This document shows, piece after piece, positions 32,374 to 62,450 of a stretch of DNA of 64,000 nucleotides. The position numbers and the translations under genes are program-made. The DNA is from Gavia stellata (Eukaryota > Chordata > Aves > Gaviiformes > Gaviidae), in the NCBI RefSeq assembly GCF_030936135.1, contig NC_082605.1:15086261-15150260 (forward strand), written 5' to 3'. Numbering within the stretch: the stretch's first letter is position 1; every line of letters starts with the position of its first letter. The notes beneath the pieces are model-generated. The model made no database searches, was not told the origin of the DNA, and saw only the letters and a program-made list of their open reading frames with translations.

Positions 32374-32990
32374 CTAGCCCCTCTCCAACAGCATGTTTAT
32401 TGTGGAGCGTTCAATATTTGTCTTTCTGAAGCTAAAAGCTAGCATGTAGCACTGAGAAACACCATCTGTTCCCACAGCTTCCCAGAGATTAATTTCAGAC
32501 CCAAAGACTGGTCGTTGCCTTCCTCAATCTGAAAAGGTTCAGCCCAGGTTTCCCACAGGGCTGGTTCTGGGGCTCTGGGTGTGGGCCTTGCCTGGGCCTC
32601 GGCACTCAGGGAGAGCAAGCGAGGCCGAGCACCGACCTGCAGCCGTGCAGACCAATGCCTGCTGCTGGCCCGTGCCCGGCGGGGCAGCAGTGCCTGCTCT
32701 CCTCGATGGCATAACCGGGCACCGGCTGTTTCCCCTGCCCGGAGGATCAGCGCTACCAGCCTGCCCGGTGGAGAGCAGTTACCGAGAGCGAGCAACGCGC
32801 TGCTGTGCCCTGGCTGAAGCAGAGGCGAGCGGCGGCCTTCCCTAGCGGCCGCCTCGGCGTGACGGAAAGGCTCGGGAAGGTCGTCGTCGTCGTCAACCGG
32901 AGACGGGGGCAGCGACCGAGTGCCTCGGGCCGGGCCTGAGCGACGCGCTCCCAGCGGGCGCCTCCCGCCCGCGCACGTTCGCGCCGCCCG

Positions 32991-33004
32991 GTCGCCATGG
33001 CGAC
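32991..33004. promoter_or_regulatory. Perfect 14-bp palindrome resembling an RFX X-box
   Basis: GTCGCCATGGCGAC is its own reverse complement and follows the X-box layout (GTNRCC, AT spacer, RGYAAC-like half) with a C/G in place of the usual T/A at one position per half. It lies 114 nt upstream of the RPP14 ATG. Factor assignment is inference. Confidence 0.5.
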
Positions 33005-33029
33005 GCCGAGGCGGGGCGGGGGGCACTGA
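32997..33029 (+). other. Possible upstream ORF in the RPP14 5' leader
   Basis: ATG inside the palindrome opens a 10-codon ORF (MATPRRGGGH, stop TGA 33027-33029). It is relevant only if transcription starts upstream of 32997, which the sequence does not show. It is out of frame with RPP14. Confidence 0.25.
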
Positions 33030-33072
33030 CTCCGCGGGGCCGCCGTAGAAGGCTGGAGGGCTCCGCGCCGCC

Positions 33073-33077
33073 ATTGG
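33073..33077 (-). promoter_or_regulatory. Inverted CCAAT box of the RPP14 promoter
   Basis: ATTGG on the + strand in the context GCCGCCATTGGCTCGGCG, a typical NF-Y site in a GC-rich TATA-less promoter. Its closeness to the ATG suggests the 5' leader is very short or that transcription starts over this site. Confidence 0.5.
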
Positions 33078-33117
33078 CTCGGCGGGGGCGCGCGGCAGTA
33101 CGCGGCCTGCAGGGCGG

Positions 33118-33203
33118 ATGGCGCGAGCGGAGCCGCCGGCCGCCACCTTTGAGCGGCGGGTGCTGCGGAGCGCCGCGGAGCACCACTACCTGCGCGTCCG
33201 CCT
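33118..33203 (+). CDS. RPP14: RPP14 coding exon 1
   Basis: ATG 33118 to donor [20 protein letters not shown] to LRVR plus two bases of Leu. GC-rich, inside the CpG island. Confidence 0.93.
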
Positions 33204-35576
33204 GTGAGTGAGTGAATGAGCGAGCGTGTGTGTGATCCGCCCCGCGGCCGCCCCCCGCCGCCGCGGAGCCCCGCTAGCCTGCCCTCTGCTCTGCTTCCCC
33301 GCAGGGAGCTGCCGGACGGCGGGGCCCGGCCGAGCGTCGCGCAGTTCAAGCAGCTGGTGGTGTCGGCGCTGAGGGAGCTGCACGGAGAGGTGGGCCGGGG
33401 CCGGGGCCGGGCTCCTTCCCTCGGCTGGCGGCTTCGCGCTGGGCCCAGGAGAGCCGTGCGGGAGCGGCCGGTGGGCCCCTGGCTTCCGCGGTGGGCTCAG
33501 CCCCCTGAAGTCTGCCCGTCTGGCCGCAGGGCAGTGTCCGAGCCGGCGGGGAGAGCGGTCGAGCTGGCGGTGCGCTGAAGAGGCAGGCTGGAGCCTTGGG
33601 CCTGCGGAGGCAGGATAAGTGTCTTCGGTTCGCCTCTGCGTTAACCTGTTACTTGCTCTCCAGCCCATGCTCTAACTTTCTTAATGAAGCTGGGGTTGTA
33701 CGTGTTGTCTTAGCGTCTATAGTCAAGTGGCTCCGGCCTACCTGGCTTTTAGAATTTGGGGTATTGATGCTTTCACTGCAGTGAGGTTCTAAAAGGAGAA
33801 CCACAGGATGGGAACAGCTTCTTGGACAGGGAAGTCCACAGTACTATTCTTGCTGTGTTTGTGGTATTGCTGGGTAACTTTAAGCAAGTCATATTGCTGC
33901 TGGGCCCCTGTTTCTCCAGCTTTAATGTGGAACTAAAAGTGGCTTCTGCCTAAAGAGCTCTGAGAGGAAGGGTCCTGTATAAAATCTAGTGGTGGTGTGG
34001 CTAAAACACTCGTGAGATTTGAGTGTAACTATAACACCTTTAATGACATCACGTGCTGGCAGTGAATTCACTTGCTTATAAACCACTATAAGAGCATAGG
34101 ATGGTACTTTATTTAATAATGTATTTTTTCATAGGTTGGAGCAGCTTTGCCTGTTGACGTCTTAACATATGAAGAAAAAACTCTGTCTGCCATATTAAGA
34201 GTTATTAGCAGGTAAGGTACAGTAGGTACACACTTCAGATACTGCCATGAAAATATTTTTCATAAGAAAACAGAACTCTTAAGCTAAGAATGGTCTTTGA
34301 AAAATTGAGCCTAACTTGCAGGCATCTGCATACAGCATGCAGAAAATAAATAAAAATTCACTAAGATTTGGTAACCTACATGCACCAGTACATTATTCCT
34401 GCTTTAAAACAGAATGGTCTGACAGCAACTAAGCACCTTTGAAATATGTGGCTTTAAATCTCTTTCTATAGTAAAGATGGGTACGGTTACCGGATTCAAA
34501 TGGTAAAGACAAGTGCAGGTGATTTAGGGGAAGAAGGAGCTTAAATGCACAGAGGGATGCTGGTAAAGTGAACTCGAAAAGATTACAGTATGTATCTCTG
34601 TATGTCAAGGACAAGAGACTGCAGTCATTGCAATAACCCTTCAGGGCACAGTGTTGCTATTAGAACTCATTGATGAAATTCCCTGCTGTTAAACTCAGTT
34701 AAGGTTATGTTACTCTTTATGTAACGTGTTTTTATTTAAGATACTTATGCTGCAGGAAAACAGAGAAAACCAAATTTTATTAATATATTTTGTCTTCTTT
34801 TTACTTAGTGGCCTCGTCAAGCTGTGGAGTGCTCTAACATTGCTGGGCTTCTACCAGAACAGGAGGTGTGCCTTTCGAGTGCTGCAGGTAAAGCCCTGCG
34901 GGGACTGGATGGCTTCCCCCAAATGTCAGTTCTTGCTCTAAGGTTGTCTGGCTAGCTGAGCACACTGCCTCTTCATAGAAAGATGGCCTAGATGCAAAAA
35001 CATCTTGGTTTGGGAATGAAATGCTTTTCAGTGCAGGTGTGTAGGCCTGTGTAAGTAATTCTTATCTTGTAATGAATCTTGTGAAATGTGCTGGTAGTGG
35101 CCGTCTCATTAATTTACGGTTTCATTCCAGTGAGATCTGATCTCATTAATACATCTGCAAGAAAATAATTTCTGGGAAGTTTTGTTCTTGGCCCACATCT
35201 TGGTCCAATCTTTCATTCTCACTACCCAATTTCTTCCCTTTCTAATAGTCGCTGACCTCATTTAAAAATGCGTGCATGAACATGCACTTCCAGAGCTTAT
35301 TTTTTCCTGAATGAGTTCCAAGAATTCTTTGTCTCGGAAGCAATGGATAAACAAAAATCTGCTTGGACATAGCTCTAAATTTTTAATCTTTTATGTAAAA
35401 GGGAAATTTAAGTATTTTCAACTTTGCGTGCATTTGATGGTGTTTTGTTGTGGTGTGGTTTTTTTTTTAAAAATGCTTTAGTTTGTTTCTTGCTTTGTGT
35501 TTGTTTCCCCCCAAACTAGACATCTCCATTTCTTCTTGCGTTATCTGGGAACAGTAGAGAACTAGTCTTGGACTGA
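33118..35576 (+). CDS. RPP14: Ribonuclease P/MRP protein subunit p14, first cistron of a bicistronic mRNA
   Basis: Joined exons: 33118-33203, 33305-33389, 34135-34211, 34809-34887, 35520-35576, giving 127 residues, close to the human protein's 124. All introns are GT-AG. RPP14 is a nuclear/nucleolar subunit of RNase P, which trims the 5' end of pre-tRNA, and belongs to the Rpp14/Pop5 family. The most conserved blocks seen are [37 protein letters not shown] and [17 protein letters not shown] at the C-terminus. The ATG is the first in the exon frame, in a mediocre context (C at -3, G at +4). The encoded protein has no internal Met. HTD2 follows in the same last exon. Confidence 0.96.
33305..33389 (+). 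CDS. RPP14: RPP14 coding exon 2
   Basis: One base completes Leu, then [17 protein letters not shown] to LRELHGE. Acceptor CCCGCAG, donor GTGGGC. The intron before it is only 101 bp and very GC-rich. Confidence 0.95.
33390..34134 (+). other. RPP14 intron 2
   Basis: 745 bp. It starts in the CpG island and becomes AT-rich after about 33620. Nothing else was recognised. Confidence 0.9.
34135..34211 (+). CDS. RPP14: RPP14 coding exon 3
   Basis: [15 protein letters not shown] to LRVIS plus two bases of Ser. This is a highly conserved core block. It also holds an out-of-frame ATG at 34169 opening a 9-codon ORF. Confidence 0.97.
34212..34808 (+). other. RPP14 intron 3
   Basis: 597 bp AT-rich intron; nothing was recognised. 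Confidence 0.9.
34809..34887 (+). CDS. RPP14: RPP14 coding exon 4
   Basis: One base completes Ser, then [15 protein letters not shown] to CAFRVLQ. Acceptor TACTTAG, donor GTAAAG. Confidence 0.97.
34888..35519 (+). other. RPP14 intron 4
   Basis: 632 bp intron, GTAAAG donor and ACTAG acceptor; nothing was recognised. It separates the RPP14 core exons from the exon that contains the whole HTD2 ORF, so splicing choice here could in principle give an HTD2-only mRNA. Confidence 0.85.
35520..35576 (+). CDS. RPP14: RPP14 last coding exon portion and stop
   Basis: [18 protein letters not shown] then TGA at 35574-35576. The same exon continues into HTD2 without an intron. Confidence 0.97.
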
Positions 35577-35618
35577 ATGCAGTTGTTGGTTTGGCTGTAC
35601 GAAGCAGAAGTTGCTTGA
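35577..35618 (+). other. 13-codon ORF filling the RPP14-HTD2 spacer
   Basis: The ATG directly follows the RPP14 TGA (TGAATG) and is in the same frame. It encodes [13 protein letters not shown] and stops with TGA at 35616-35618, one base before the HTD2 ATG (TGAGATG). Its start context is weak (T at -3, C at +4). It may be chance, or part of how ribosomes reach HTD2. Confidence 0.4.
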
Positions 35619-35619
35619 G

Positions 35620-36126
35620 ATGTTGCAGCCCTTCAGGCGTGGAATTTCTGGAGGGGATTTCCGACAAAGAGCCTTGACAAAGCTAACATTTATCAACTCC
35701 CTGCTTGGACGTCCCTTCCTTCAGAGTTTACACATAAAAGTTGGAGACAAAGCTGAACTTACCAAAACTTTTACACAGAATGATATTGTTACTTTTTCTG
35801 ATTTAACAGGTGACACAAATCCTTTGCATTTAAATGAAGATTTTGCAAAGAAATCTAGGTTTGGGAGAACTATTGTACATGGAGTTTTGATCAATGGACT
35901 TATTTCTGCAGTTCTGGGTACTAAAATGCCTGGTCAAGGTTGTGTATTTCTTTCTCAGGAGATCCGATTTCCAGCTCCTTTGTATACAGGTGAAGAAGTC
36001 ATAGCTGCCGCAGAAGTTAAACGACTGAAGGGTTCTATTGCACACATTTCAGTATCATGTAAAGTCAAAGAAAGTGGAAAGACCGTTATGGAAGGGATGG
36101 TGAAAGTCATGGTGTCAGACAGTTAG
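35620..36126 (+). CDS. HTD2: Mitochondrial hydroxyacyl-thioester dehydratase type 2, second cistron
   Basis: Uninterrupted 168-codon ORF, the same length as the human protein, starting at ATG 35620 (G at -3). A reading that begins at the upstream TTG 35611 is not needed. It catalyses dehydration of 3-hydroxyacyl-ACP to trans-2-enoyl-ACP in mitochondrial type II fatty acid synthesis. Residues 1 to about 38 are basic with few acids ([12 protein letters not shown]), fitting a mitochondrial targeting peptide. The MaoC-like hydratase 2 motif is seen at about 55-75: [21 protein letters not shown], with the catalytic Asp65 and His70 pair intact. A second conserved stretch is [10 protein letters not shown] (81-90). 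It lies 43 nt downstream of the RPP14 stop, in another frame and in the same exon, as in other vertebrates. Confidence 0.96.
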
Positions 36127-38035
36127 AGCTGTTGATCCTGTGCTGCTTTATTATAAAGGCCAGAAATGTATGCTTGGTTTTGACTGTGTCTTTTTACGTG
36201 ACATCACTTAATCCAGTAAATTTGCAACAAAAAACTTCCAAAGGATTTCAAAGACAGTGCACAAACTTAATCTCGATAGAACTGCATTAAACTTAGAGCT
36301 TTTCATTTTTCCCTGCGTACTTCCAAGATGAAATCAATGGAACTAGGCACTTACTGTGACAAAAGTGGCACGTTTACCTGGGCCTTTGCTCTGCTCCAGT
36401 GGGAAGTCTGGAGTGGCGGGGCTTATATTGAGGCTGTTCTTTTTGCCAAAATCACAGTCCACTCTAGCTGAGTTCAGTTAAAACTTGTTCCCTCTTTACA
36501 AGGTAGTTGTATTGCTAACAAGCACCGGAGGGAGGGGACAATTCTGTGTGTTCAACAAGCAGAACAGAAGTGGAGGTACTGACCCACACGTACTGCAAGA
36601 TCTGTTGCCATCTGCATGGCAGCTCTAGCTGATGTTGGTGCAGTGTGTTCTTTTGCAGTGTTCTAGCTAGTAAAGCCTTCCTTAGCTCTGCAAATAAGTA
36701 GTAGTCAGCCTTCACATAAACAATATGCTCTGCCTGATTCTGCTGGAGATGTGGCTTTCATAATACTTTCAAATTCTTGAGATACCTTACAAAACCTGAT
36801 GATTAGCAAAGAAAAAAATGCCTTTAATGATAAATGTCTCTGAAACTTGCCTCCCAGAAGTAGAGTGAAGGAGGCTTTTAAAAAGCTGTATTGTCACTTG
36901 TACTTATTGCCTCTGTATGTTCCTGTGGGCAAGACAAACAGGGGCAATTTTGTTGAGTACTAACTACGTGGCTTCTCTTTGCTTATTTGACTGAACATGT
37001 ATTCCCCTTTGCCCACTGAAAGTACCTTGGTTGCTGGTAAAGTAGGCTTTTCGTAAATTCATTAGTTATTCATCTGGGTTAAATTATTTTAGTACCAATG
37101 TAGGATTACTATACAGTAAGAAACTTTTTTTCAGGAGTGATGGGGAGTAGAAGTACACACTGTCTTCAGTTGGTGGCTCATACAATTTTCTGGCAAAACT
37201 TCTGTTATCCCCCCATCTTCTCTGCAGCAGAAATGCATCCATAACTTTTCTTGGCTGCAAATAATCTCAAAAGTTGTTTGCTATGAAAAGAGAGTTTGTC
37301 CTCAAACTGTGATGAAAGCTACTGCTAAAACAGTTACTCTCTCTGGGTGTGATGTCTTGTTCTTAAATGCAGCTGCACTGTAACAACAAACCCCAGGTGT
37401 TAAGTCAAACTAGAGCAGAGGGAGGGGTACTGTTTAAGCTGTTTGACTTCGCTATGCCCTCTCTTTTCAAAGCATGGGGTTTGGCCTGTTCACAGCACAA
37501 GTACTTTGCGAGAGCTTTCCTTATCTCTTGTCTGTAGGGGTTGCTTCGCTTCCCGTTTCCTTTTCCTCTGCCCTGGGTCATTGCCTGAACACTGCCTTTT
37601 GCTGTACAAAACACTGTTTTTCAAAGCAGGCATGCTCATTCCCGTGTTCCTTGTTCACCTGCCTCTCTAGATGGGACGTCGTCATGTTAATGCCTGTTCA
37701 CAAAAGGAATCAAATCTGTATCTGACTTCTTGGGTCACTATAGAAGAAGCAGTTTGGAAAGAGTCAAGATTGCTGTTCCAGCCTGAGATTTAGCTCCTTA
37801 ACTACAGCGCACAGTGCATTTTCCTGCCAGTCTGGAGCTGCCAGACAGAGGAGGCTGTTTACGGTAACTGAAGGGTACGACAAACTCAAGCTCTGTGGTC
37901 TGACTGAACATCTCAAGTGAGATTAATTCCTGTACGCGGTGTAGAAAGACAAACGGAAATACAGACAAGCGTTCAACAGGCCGTAGGTTCCCAAGTGCCA
38001 AGTAACACTGAAATAAAGAGTTTTCTACACTGCTG
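36127..38035 (+). other. Probable 3' UTR of the RPP14/HTD2 mRNA
   Basis: 1.9 kb without coding signal. An ATTAAA variant lies at 36286-36291 and the first canonical AATAAA at 38012-38017. Either could end the transcript. Short ORFs here are not supported. Confidence 0.55.
38012..38017 (+). terminator. Candidate poly(A) signal of RPP14/HTD2
   Basis: AATAAA followed by GAGTTTTCTACACTG. It is the first canonical hexamer after the HTD2 stop and lies only about 600 bp before PXK exon 1. Confidence 0.5.
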
Positions 38036-59700: not shown

Positions 59701-62450
59701 ATTAGAGGTATTTTTTCTTTTTGCTTTATTTACCAACCGTTATGTTTTTTTTTTTTTGAGGCCAAATGGTTTAACTAGAAAAAGTAGACAAACTTTCAAG
59801 CACACAAGCTTTATTTTGGCATCAGACTTCAAAGCTAAATGTAAAGTGAGATTAGCTGCTGGGAGTTGAATTTAGATATGTATGTGTAAGGCCATTTCTG
59901 ACAAAAAAAAGGCAGTTGGTATGTGTGGAGCTGAAGTGGGAGAGAGGTGGTAATGTATTTTTTTTCCTTGCAGGAAAAGGGAAAGAAGTAATTCATAGCC
60001 TGCAGAACATGTGCCATAAATTAATTATAATTAATGTGGTGTTTTTTAATTTTTTAATTCTAACAATAATATTCAGTAGAATTGTGAATTTTAGTTTCCA
60101 GATCTCTTTGGGAGGTGTCTATTAGCATGCTTTGAGGATCAGCATCAAATGTTTGTTTTGTGACAAATGTCACCAGTGAAATGGAAATGAATAGTCAGCC
60201 AAAGATGATGTAGATAGAAGATCAAGTTGAGCAAGCATTCCAAATAGGGGCCTCATCTATTATGTATCTGCTTTAGTATTGGAGCATTGAGATCATCAGA
60301 GCATCTTGTGACAGTGCTCTTGTCTTGGATTTTTTTCAGGTATTAAAATTCTTGCATGAGAAAGGATTTCCTTATGGCCATCTTCACTCTGCCAATGTGA
60401 TGTTGGATGGGGACATCTGCAAGTTACTGGATCTAGAAAATTCCCTGTTAGGACTTCCATCATTTTATCGATCATACTTTTCACAGTTTCGGAAAATTAA
60501 TGTAAGATTCAGACAATTAATTCAGCTGACTTATGCATCCCTTTATCCTCAACTTCTGTTTGTGGAGAACTGACTAGAATGAAAAAAACCTCTATCAACC
60601 CCCTTTCTTTAATCTGAGCTTTTCTCCATCAAATCTCTTTCCTGCTTCCTCCAAATCACTGTCTGGCTGCACAGAAATTTTGTTGCAGCACACTGGAGTG
60701 AGGGCTGAGGCCAAAGGTAAGCAGGTAGAAGGGAAGTGCAGGTGAGTGTTTTCGTGACAGCAGTGCCGCCACAAATAGAGGTTTGTGTTTTTAAGATCCC
60801 TTTCCACCCTGGTCTTGTATTTTATAGGAATGTGCATATTGTCTACCACACTTTTTCACTGGTATGTCTGTACAATGAGCGCAGCTTATTACTTGGTCTT
60901 TGCTGGGAGTAGTAATCAGCCTTGTCTTTGGTGGATACTGTGAAAATTGATTAGATGCTTGCAGACATCTAGCTACTAAAGTTGGTTTTTATTTGTTTGA
61001 AGGGTGTCTCAACTGCAGGCCTGCAAAACAAAATACTATCTTTCTACAAAAATATGAAAACAAATTTGCCTTGTTGCAGCAGTACAGCCTTTTAGCCAGC
61101 ATCTTGCCCTGCCTTTAAGTGCTTATTGTAATAAATTCCATACAGCATCACGAGACAGCTGCTTGTTGACCTTGCTAAACAAGTTCTACTATGTTGTCAA
61201 AGAAACCATCAGAAGTTCATGCTTAGTCCAAATCTGTTAGTGCCATCAGAGCTCTAAGCCTCCTCCAGTAAGAGGAGCCATTTCTGTTTAAACATGATTC
61301 AAAAAATCTCGGAAATATGCTGTCTGGGAGCTTAGCATGTATGTACAGCTTGTACAAACCTAAGGAGGAGTGAAAGAGACTCTCCTAGGTTTGTTTGGTA
61401 GCATTTTCGCTGTCTTTTTGTCTATCTCCCTGTAAAGTGACAGCTGGTCATATTGTGAATGTCATTCTTCGCTGTGTGACTTAGCTAGGAAAATGTGCTT
61501 GGTTGTGATTCATATCGATGTATGGCTCTCTAAACTGCTGTGTATGAAAAGAGTTTATTACTTTACGGGTTTTTACAGAACATGTATCCCATTTGTATCA
61601 TCACGTACAGAAAGACAGCAGCTTGAGGCGTGAAGATTTAATTCAGTTATGCAGGGAAATGGTTGTGGTTAGATGTCTTAATGGTTGCTCTTTTCTATCT
61701 TCAAATGCAAGACCACTCCTTTTCTTTAATGGGTTATCGCATGTTTTCAAACCAGTTGTGAAAAACTGATTGCTTTTAGCAAGTTGTGTTTTTATTTTTT
61801 TGTTCTTCCACAGACTTTAGAAGGTGTTGATGTACATTGCTTTGGACACTTACTGTATGAAATGACATATGGAAGACCCCCAGATACGATTCCAGTAGAC
61901 AGCTTCCCTCCTGCACCATCAGTGTTTGTTGGTTAGTATACAATCGAGAAAATGTCAGTCTTGGCTTCCTGGGTACTCTTACCTTTTACCTAAGCTGAAG
62001 TGCTGTGAAATAGCAGCCTGAGATCTTTGCAGCCTGTGACCAGAAAGAACTAGTAATTTGTAAAAATAGAAAATGTGTTCTTTCTGAAATATGTGTAGCA
62101 TATAAATAAAACATTTTTTTTAAACTGAGTGATAAAGCAGTGTGTAATAAGTAATTAAATGTCTGGATTCCCTTGCCTCATGTCTAACATTCTTGAAAAG
62201 CTTGTATCTGTAATAGTAACATTATAATAAAAAACACGCCACAGAGCTTCATCACTGCTTAGTTGATGCAATACTTTGGGGAACATCGCACAGCAGTGCC
62301 AGACATTCATGCTAAATCATTTGCTATCCTGCCGTGCAAAAATGTGTTCATTCTTACTCTTTCTTTTGTAGTGTCTGTGTTGGAATCCATTCTGACCTGT
62401 GAAGCTATGAAGAATGGCATGCCAACTGTTTCACGGCTCTTACAGATGCC
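38652..62450 (+). CDS. PXK: PX domain-containing protein kinase-like protein (first twelve coding exons; 3' end outside the window)
   Basis: Joined exons: 38652-38753, 49411-49461, 50127-50174, 54814-55000, 56937-57014, 57186-57259, 58144-58218, 59339-59443, 59606-59707, 60340-60501, 61814-61931, 62372-62450. They give 393 residues plus two bases of a Pro codon, about two thirds of the roughly 580-residue family length. All introns are GT-AG. The PX domain (about 15-125) binds phosphoinositide on endosomes and shows RRYSDF, a PPKK loop and FIAERQKGLQAYL. The kinase-like domain (about 145-394) lacks key catalytic residues: HRD Asp is His288 (YGHLHSANV), DFG is DLE (305-307), and no Gly-rich loop is seen. 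The C-terminal basic/WH2-Pro region is not in the window. The family is linked to receptor endocytosis and Na,K-ATPase beta-subunit binding. Confidence 0.97.
38861..38962 (+). other. G-run cluster at the start of PXK intron 1
   Basis: Several runs of 4 to 13 G on the non-template strand within 100 bp, starting about 110 nt after the exon 1 donor. The spacing fits G-quadruplex formation in the nascent RNA or the displaced DNA strand. Confidence 0.6.
45930..46330. other. Unidentified CpG-elevated segment in PXK intron 1
   Basis: Contains an unusual number of CpGs for this intron (around 45943, 45961, 45989, 46028-46057, 46089, 46111, 46137, 46251-46268) and ends near an AATAAA (46307-46312) followed by TTTGTGTGTTCTGCC. 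It looks like a foreign insert such as a solo LTR or retroposed 3' end, but I recognise no family and saw no clean ends. Confidence 0.3.
49411..49461 (+). CDS. PXK: PXK coding exon 2
   Basis: 17 codons, EYIIRVQRGVSAENSWQ, a PX-domain strand, phase 0. Acceptor TTATTAG, donor GTAATT. It is separated from exon 1 by a 10.7 kb intron. Confidence 0.96.
49462..50126 (+). other. PXK intron 2
   Basis: 665 bp, AT-rich; nothing was recognised. Confidence 0.9.
50127..50174 (+). CDS. PXK: PXK coding exon 3 (PX-domain RRYSDF motif)
   Basis: 16 codons, IVRRYSDFDLLNNSLQ. The RRYSDF motif supplies the Arg that binds the 3-phosphate of PI3P in PX domains. Acceptor TTGCAG, donor GTAACT. Confidence 0.97.
50175..54813 (+). 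other. PXK intron 3
   Basis: 4.6 kb AT-rich intron. The 144-codon minus-strand ORF at 52352-52786 shows no motif. No repeat family was recognised. Confidence 0.85.
54814..55000 (+). CDS. PXK: PXK coding exon 4 (rest of the PX domain)
   Basis: 62 codons plus one base: ISTLSLPPKKLIGNM, FIAERQKGLQAYLDV, LVKKFLDPNSYSVNYT. It holds the PX-domain proline loop and the membrane-facing basic helix. Acceptor TTTTTAAG, donor GTAAGT. Confidence 0.97.
55001..56936 (+). other. PXK intron 4
   Basis: 1.9 kb. It contains an old antisense CR1-like remnant (about 55455-55720) and a C-run (56430-56445). The acceptor carries a long T tract. Confidence 0.85.
55455..55720 (-). repeat. Probable old CR1-like LINE remnant, antisense
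   Basis: CATCTTGTCTAGCTTC, then CACTGCATCCCTTAAAATGA, and TTTGTCTGACTTCAGCTTC with GCTGTTGGAAATTG follow the antisense layout seen in old amniote CR1 copies (a stretch normally reading TTTGTCTAGCTTCA.CTTCCAG..ATTGG). Strongly diverged; ends are approximate. Confidence 0.45.
56937..57014 (+). CDS. PXK: PXK coding exon 5 (linker to the kinase-like domain)
   Basis: Two bases complete Glu, then IALQHVSMFFRSEPKW to PLKDI plus one base of Gly. Acceptor TTTCCAG, donor GTAAGA. Confidence 0.97.
57186..57259 (+). CDS. PXK: PXK coding exon 6 (kinase N-lobe lysine)
   Basis: Two bases complete Gly, then WRIRKKYFLMKIKNQPKERL to LSW. LMKIK takes the place of the VAIK lysine motif. Donor GTATAT is weak, and the frame stays open for 137 codons past it to a stop at 57668-57670. 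Confidence 0.96.
57260..58143 (+). other. PXK intron 6 with an open read-through of the upstream exon
   Basis: 884 bp. The first 408 bp stay open in the exon 6 frame (137 codons) and close with TGA at 57668-57670. No poly(A) hexamer was seen just after. Nothing else was recognised. Confidence 0.8.
58144..58218 (+). CDS. PXK: PXK coding exon 7
   Basis: 25 codons, ADLGPDKYLSDKDLQY to LLSSCS, phase 0. Acceptor TTCCAG, donor GTGAGT. Confidence 0.96.
58219..59338 (+). other. PXK intron 7
   Basis: 1.1 kb AT-rich intron; nothing was recognised. Confidence 0.9.
59339..59443 (+). CDS. PXK: PXK coding exon 8
   Basis: 35 codons, HPYIYKITFATANESS to KGTLKDLIYK, phase 0. It corresponds to the kinase hinge region (the short-chain stretch before GTLKDL). 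Acceptor TGGTAG, donor GTAATA. Confidence 0.96.
59606..59707 (+). CDS. PXK: PXK coding exon 9
   Basis: 34 codons, AKPKDPFLKKYCNPKK to IKTYGRQILE, phase 0. It starts the C-lobe helices. The intron before it is only 162 bp. Confidence 0.96.
59708..60339 (+). other. PXK intron 9
   Basis: 632 bp AT-rich intron with T runs; nothing was recognised. Confidence 0.9.
60340..60501 (+). CDS. PXK: PXK coding exon 10 (degenerate catalytic loop and DFG segment)
   Basis: 54 codons, VLKFLHEKGFPYGHLHSANV to SQFRKIN. It holds the catalytic-loop equivalent GHLHSANVML (His where kinases have the HRD Asp; the loop Asn is kept) and LLDLENS in place of DFG. Donor GTAAGA. Confidence 0.97.
60502..61813 (+). other. 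PXK intron 10
   Basis: 1.3 kb; exon 10 stays open for 23 codons into it (stop at 60571-60573). Nothing else was recognised. Confidence 0.9.
61814..61931 (+). CDS. PXK: PXK coding exon 11
   Basis: 39 codons plus one base, TLEGVDVHCFGHLLYEM to PAPSVFV. VDVHCFGHLLYEMTYGRPP matches the kinase helix F region (D-W-F/L-G-equivalent). Confidence 0.97.
61932..62371 (+). other. PXK intron 11
   Basis: 440 bp AT-rich intron, GTTAGT donor and TTTTGTAG acceptor; nothing was recognised. Confidence 0.9.
62372..62450 (+). CDS. PXK: PXK coding exon 12 (last in the window)
   Basis: Two bases complete Val, then SVLESILTCEAMKNG to SRLLQM plus two bases of Pro, donor GTAAGT. The following family segment (LFSDVLL-type) is not present up to 64000, so the next exon lies beyond the window. 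Confidence 0.96.

Follow-up and report, generated by a model that had tools for sequence, protein, structure and literature searches.

In vertebrates, RPP14 and HTD2 share a bicistronic mRNA, the description of which is credited to Autio et al. 2008 (PMC5932603, PMC4705651), and in which an RNase P subunit is followed by a mitochondrial MaoC-type dehydratase encoded in the same last exon; the bicistron and the function of HTD2 are both already in print. This mRNA is a functionally characterised vertebrate message for two proteins, an RNase P subunit and an enzyme of mitochondrial fatty acid synthesis. The accessible text of PMC4705651 calls the route by which HTD2 is translated uninvestigated and considers leaky scanning and/or reinitiation likely, and the accessible parts of PMC7164515, PMC8385949, PMC12819141 and PMC12617527 do not address the route. 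Among other described systems, green-algal bicistrons are reported to combine a suboptimal start context at open reading frame (ORF) 1 with few AUGs ahead of ORF 2, in a paper that established the AUG deficit for two algae, over 36 and 43 loci, put the mechanism to a mutational test in one and also restates the start-context consensus (PMC11892635); coupled termination-reinitiation was used by 5 of 24 human transcripts tested (PMC3923131); and the termination upstream ribosomal binding site (TURBS) of caliciviruses is associated with adjoining stop and start codons (PMC5972666). The 64,000-nucleotide stretch of Gavia stellata DNA analysed here (contig NC_082605.1; "the window") contains the ortholog of the vertebrate RPP14/HTD2 gene, with RPP14 first and HTD2 second on the + strand. 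Our preferred reading, to which we give a probability of roughly 0.55, is that HTD2 is reached by leaky scanning past RPP14 and that the small number of ATGs in the first cistron is a by-product of its protein sequence and codon usage, and not of detectable selection.

The RPP14/HTD2 gene in the window

Five exons with GT/AG borders (33118-33203, 33305-33389, 34135-34211, 34809-34887 and 35520-36126) give a spliced product that encodes an RPP14 protein of 127 aa and, within the last exon, an HTD2 protein of 168 aa whose start lies 43 nt past the RPP14 stop. Their coding parts are as follows:

33118..33203, + strand, RPP14 coding exon 1, beginning at the ATG (context GGGCGGATGG), with a protein match to RPP14 chain 6ahr_H
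33305..33389, + strand, RPP14 coding exon 2
34135..34211, + strand, RPP14 coding exon 3, which contains ATG 34169
34809..34887, + strand, RPP14 coding exon 4
35520..35576, + strand, last RPP14 coding segment, with stop TGA at 35574-35576
35620..36126, + strand, HTD2 ORF of 168 aa, a MaoC-type dehydratase and relative of chain 3ir3_A

The second protein was identified by its match to 3ir3_A (3-hydroxyacyl-thioester dehydratase 2, E 1.7e-62), a chain that we take to be human, and to PF01575 (E 2.2e-20); the first was identified by its match to 6ahr_H (E 5.7e-51) and to Pfam family PF01900 (E 7.2e-10). The 6AHR structure is human RNase P (PMC8509007). Gene order and both strong protein matches thus agree with the known vertebrate bicistron, and relative to human RPP14 the window protein is 127 rather than 124 aa long and lacks the human internal Met, with otherwise no substantial difference. 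We infer that RPP14 and HTD2 are borne by a single shared mRNA in Gavia stellata, with which the splice sites are consistent. A protein search of the bird's own genome (1.32 Gb, 1185 contigs; best candidates scored) for a retrocopy of the spliced mRNA returned four matches, all at this locus on contig C12, and no second copy.

Start codons between RPP14 and HTD2

The spliced path that joins the RPP14 ATG (33118) to the HTD2 ATG (35620) is 427 nt long, has a GC content of 0.58 and includes only two other ATGs, at 34169 and 35577, and spliced translation gives an RPP14 of 127 residues without an internal Met; on these points, and on the bases around the start codons, a preliminary description of this DNA proved accurate. 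Those bases are C at -3 for RPP14, C at -3 and A at +4 for 34169, T at -3 and C at +4 for 35577, and G at -3 for HTD2. The HTD2 ATG carries T at +4, so that RPP14 (C-3/G+4) and HTD2 (G-3/T+4) each have one of the two favourable positions, and the two decoy ATGs have neither favoured base. By the usual context rule this makes the decoys weak and gives RPP14 and HTD2 each a start of intermediate strength. The short ORFs that bear on scanning are the following:

34169 to stop 34196-34198, + strand, out-of-frame ORF of 9 codons inside exon 3
35577..35618, + strand, ORF of 13 codons that begins directly at the RPP14 stop (TGAATG) and closes with TGA 35616-35618, one base ahead of the HTD2 ATG
32997..33029, + strand, possible upstream ORF of 10 codons (G-3/G+4), in the mRNA only if transcription begins upstream

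Both decoy ORFs (9 and 13 codons) finish ahead of the HTD2 ATG, and the 10-codon ORF stops 88 bases ahead of the RPP14 ATG. In the full mRNA and in seven modelled exon 2/3/4 skip forms, no ORF whose ATG lies at or after 33118 extends across the HTD2 ATG; leaky scanning is therefore permitted, and reinitiation after the short decoys is possible.

We infer leaky scanning to be the main route to HTD2, on the basis of this sequence anatomy. One mRNA would bear RPP14 and then HTD2, 43 nt past the RPP14 stop; some scanning 40S subunits would bypass the RPP14 ATG with its C at -3, and the same subunits would mostly bypass the two poorly placed ATGs and then initiate at HTD2. The scarcity of ATGs would follow from a short, Met-poor protein and from GC-rich, C-ending codons, above all in the CpG-island exons. 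The preliminary description had paired leaky scanning with selection against ATGs: the first half fits the permissive anatomy and contexts and a bicistron described for human and rat in the accessible literature, and the second half is not supported (below). In profiled rat PC12 cells the RPP14 and HTD2 ORFs appear to be inhibited by translation of upstream ORFs under oxygen and glucose deprivation (PMC4419486), a joint inhibition that fits one scanned mRNA; the rat hippocampus peptides reported in the accessible text of PMC6825209 are for the HTD2 ORF only.

The two cistrons are linked by a stop-start chain (UGA-AUG at 35574-35579, 13 codons, then UGA-G-AUG at 35616-35622) that the preliminary description did not mention. 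The presence of these junctions, together with the fact that the ORFs at 32997, 34169 and 35577 are all ≤13 codons long, raises the rather unlikely alternative that HTD2 is partly reached by reinitiation after these short ORFs (the first of them if it is transcribed), with a minority of ribosomes coming from the RPP14 stop and restarting at the adjoining ATG. The review that thinks leaky scanning and/or reinitiation likely also regards reinitiation as particularly efficient in mammalian cells, but it cites a prediction that upstream ORFs of more than 55 codons prevent reinitiation (PMC4705651), and RPP14 has 127 codons; reinitiation following long ORFs is likewise presumed to be very rare (PMC5972666). 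A complete relay, in which post-RPP14 ribosomes restart at UGA-AUG, read 13 codons and restart again at the HTD2 AUG, appears very improbable to us; if it were true, HTD2 output would be coupled to RPP14 translation and would not compete with it. The human coupled mRNAs are alike in having a second ORF on a cellular mRNA and a start codon at the ORF 1 stop, but HTD2 itself begins 43 nt after the RPP14 stop (PMC3923131). The calicivirus TURBS is alike in its adjoining stop and start (here UGAAUG), and a UGGGA upstream is a possible counterpart of its motif 1, but the adjoining ATG here opens the 13-codon ORF and not HTD2 (PMC5972666). This UGGGA lies at 35546-35550 and ends 23 nt ahead of the RPP14 stop (about 0.14 are expected per 87 nt by composition), and a single-sequence fold of mRNA positions 331-440, the region in which complementary motifs 2 and 2* would expose motif 1, is at shuffle level (-27.3 vs -27.1 in shuffles).

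ATG counts and the question of selection

The six to seven ATGs that the preliminary description had expected at even base composition agree with our computed 6.6 for 427 nt, against 2 seen, and the path's own base composition predicts 6.2. Dinucleotide-preserving shuffles (n=5000) lower the mean to 4.0 ATGs, with P(<=2) = 0.15. When RPP14 codons 2-127 plus the stop were permuted synonymously, keeping protein and codon usage, 0.87 ATGs were expected vs 1 seen (P(<=1) 0.80). The G+C content of third codon positions (GC3) is 0.95 in exons 1-2, 0.44 in exons 3-5 and 0.66 in the RPP14 gene overall, and permuting exons 1-2 and exons 3-5 apart gave 1.44 expected vs 1 seen (P 0.53). Equal use of synonyms predicts 2.66 ATGs in the RPP14 coding sequence (P 0.17). 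Of these controls only one, a modelled GC3 of 0.35, makes the count appear low (3.45 expected, P 0.048), and that GC3 is far under the gene's 0.66. The ATG count is thus truly low, yet a scarcity greater than chance is not shown. The AUG number ahead of ORF 2 by which leaky-scanning bicistrons are recognised, judged under a codon-preserving expectation, is not reduced here (1 vs 0.87 and 1.44, at low power). The RPP14/HTD2 gene is alike to the green-algal bicistrons in its few AUGs ahead of ORF 2 and perhaps in a suboptimal ORF 1 context, but it is one locus within its codon-permuted expectation, in contrast to the many algal loci with a reported deficit (PMC11892635).

HTD2, which served as the sole comparison within the locus, has 9 ATGs counted in its 168 codons vs 7.55 expected, which is no depletion, and composition and amino acids explain most of the gap between the expectations for the two cistrons, 7.55 for HTD2 vs 0.87 for RPP14. 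When all 64 triplets along the path are set against a Markov expectation, ATG is sixth lowest (2 seen, 4.0 expected); GAT is the most under-represented, and CCC, CAA, AGG and AAT are also lower than ATG.

Avoidance specific to ATG was sought in the choice of synonyms. Asn, Asp, His and Tyr codons (NAY) that end in T create an ATG when the next base is G. The NAY codons of RPP14 end in C in 3 of 4 cases before G and in 7 of 7 before other bases, so the preference for C is general and as strong where an ATG could not arise; in HTD2 all four NAY codons before G end in T, and elsewhere 7 end in T and 6 in C. Among codons that permit a final A, neither of the 2 that precede TG uses it, against 21 of the 106 elsewhere, too few to tell. 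Six RPP14 dipeptides could gain an ATG by synonymous change and one of them does, and zero ATGs would occur in 36% of permutations of the whole coding sequence and in 13% when the two exon groups are permuted apart; one species can therefore hardly reveal selection. If Met is assumed to make up 2.2% of residues, RPP14 would lack an internal Met with a probability near 0.06. Human RPP14, compared here through the Protein Data Bank protein only (6ahr_H), has an internal Met (SEYHYMKV). With 8 opportunity sites, one Met and a modelled 1.7 to 5.4 ATGs for GC3 of 0.9 to 0.35, the human gene would be the better test. A search for a vertebrate relative with the HTD2 protein gave 0 matches in viral_contigs and 11 loci in genome_contigs, all bacterial by title and MaoC relatives with 30-44% identity, which were left out of the comparison.

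These results bear on the inference of the preliminary description that selection removed ATGs from the first cistron and so lets scanning ribosomes reach HTD2, which we consider distinctly unlikely. It draws on the 2 ATGs in 427 nt vs 6.6 by length, on the far greater ATG richness of HTD2 on the same mRNA and on the reported AUG depletion ahead of ORF 2 in green-algal bicistrons (PMC11892635), but the codon-permuted controls are equally ATG-poor and reproduce the count, the C-ending bias is not specific to ATG, human RPP14 contains an internal Met, five trinucleotides are more under-represented than ATG, and power is low. A single-species ATG count is no evidence of selection. In the accessible portion of the open literature searched, we found no study that had tested RPP14 for ATG depletion.

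Several points count against the preferred reading, in one or the other of its halves. The RPP14 ATG carries G at +4, and the first 60 nt after it are very GC-rich and fold at -36.0 kcal/mol, compared with -30.0 (standard deviation 3.2) in 100 mononucleotide shuffles; structure just past an ATG can raise start recognition and reduce leakiness. Other windows around this ATG are at shuffle level (+4..+90, -42.0 vs -43.8; -40..+60, -58.9 vs -56.2). The ATG density of HTD2, 1.79 per 100 nt vs 0.26 in RPP14, is a contrast that selection would also predict, and six opportunity sites in one species give little power, so that the statistics are compatible with selection.

Promoter region, alternative mRNAs and neighbouring genes

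HTD2 might instead be produced chiefly by alternative mRNAs of this locus, which would either begin within exon 1 past 33118 or skip exons, and the following feature bears on this:

32701..33650, + strand, sole CpG-island-like stretch within 32401-36350, spanning the RPP14 start

At 33073, 45 bases ahead of the RPP14 ATG, there is an inverse CCAAT box (ATTGG), and some transcription starts may therefore fall at or after that ATG; exons of 85, 77 and 79 nt would each shift the frame if skipped. Against such an origin, though as weak evidence only, intron 4 contains no CpG island, TATAAA or TATATA that could mark a separate promoter, but it does have two CCAAT words, at 35205 and 35226; the published papers, in their accessible text, describe one bicistronic mRNA in mammals. 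We therefore judge it unlikely that such mRNAs are the main source of HTD2.

Elsewhere in the genome, three other MaoC-like pieces (L002-L004) lie within 6 kb on contig C44 and are probably exons of another MaoC-domain gene. Within the window, frames on the + strand from about 38652 onward and at 60277-60570 are presumably PXK exons by the look of their sequence, with no Pfam match. Upstream of RPP14 and on the same strand, a PRKAR2A-like open frame at 17092-17439 matches the PKA type II-alpha regulatory subunit over residues 6-62.
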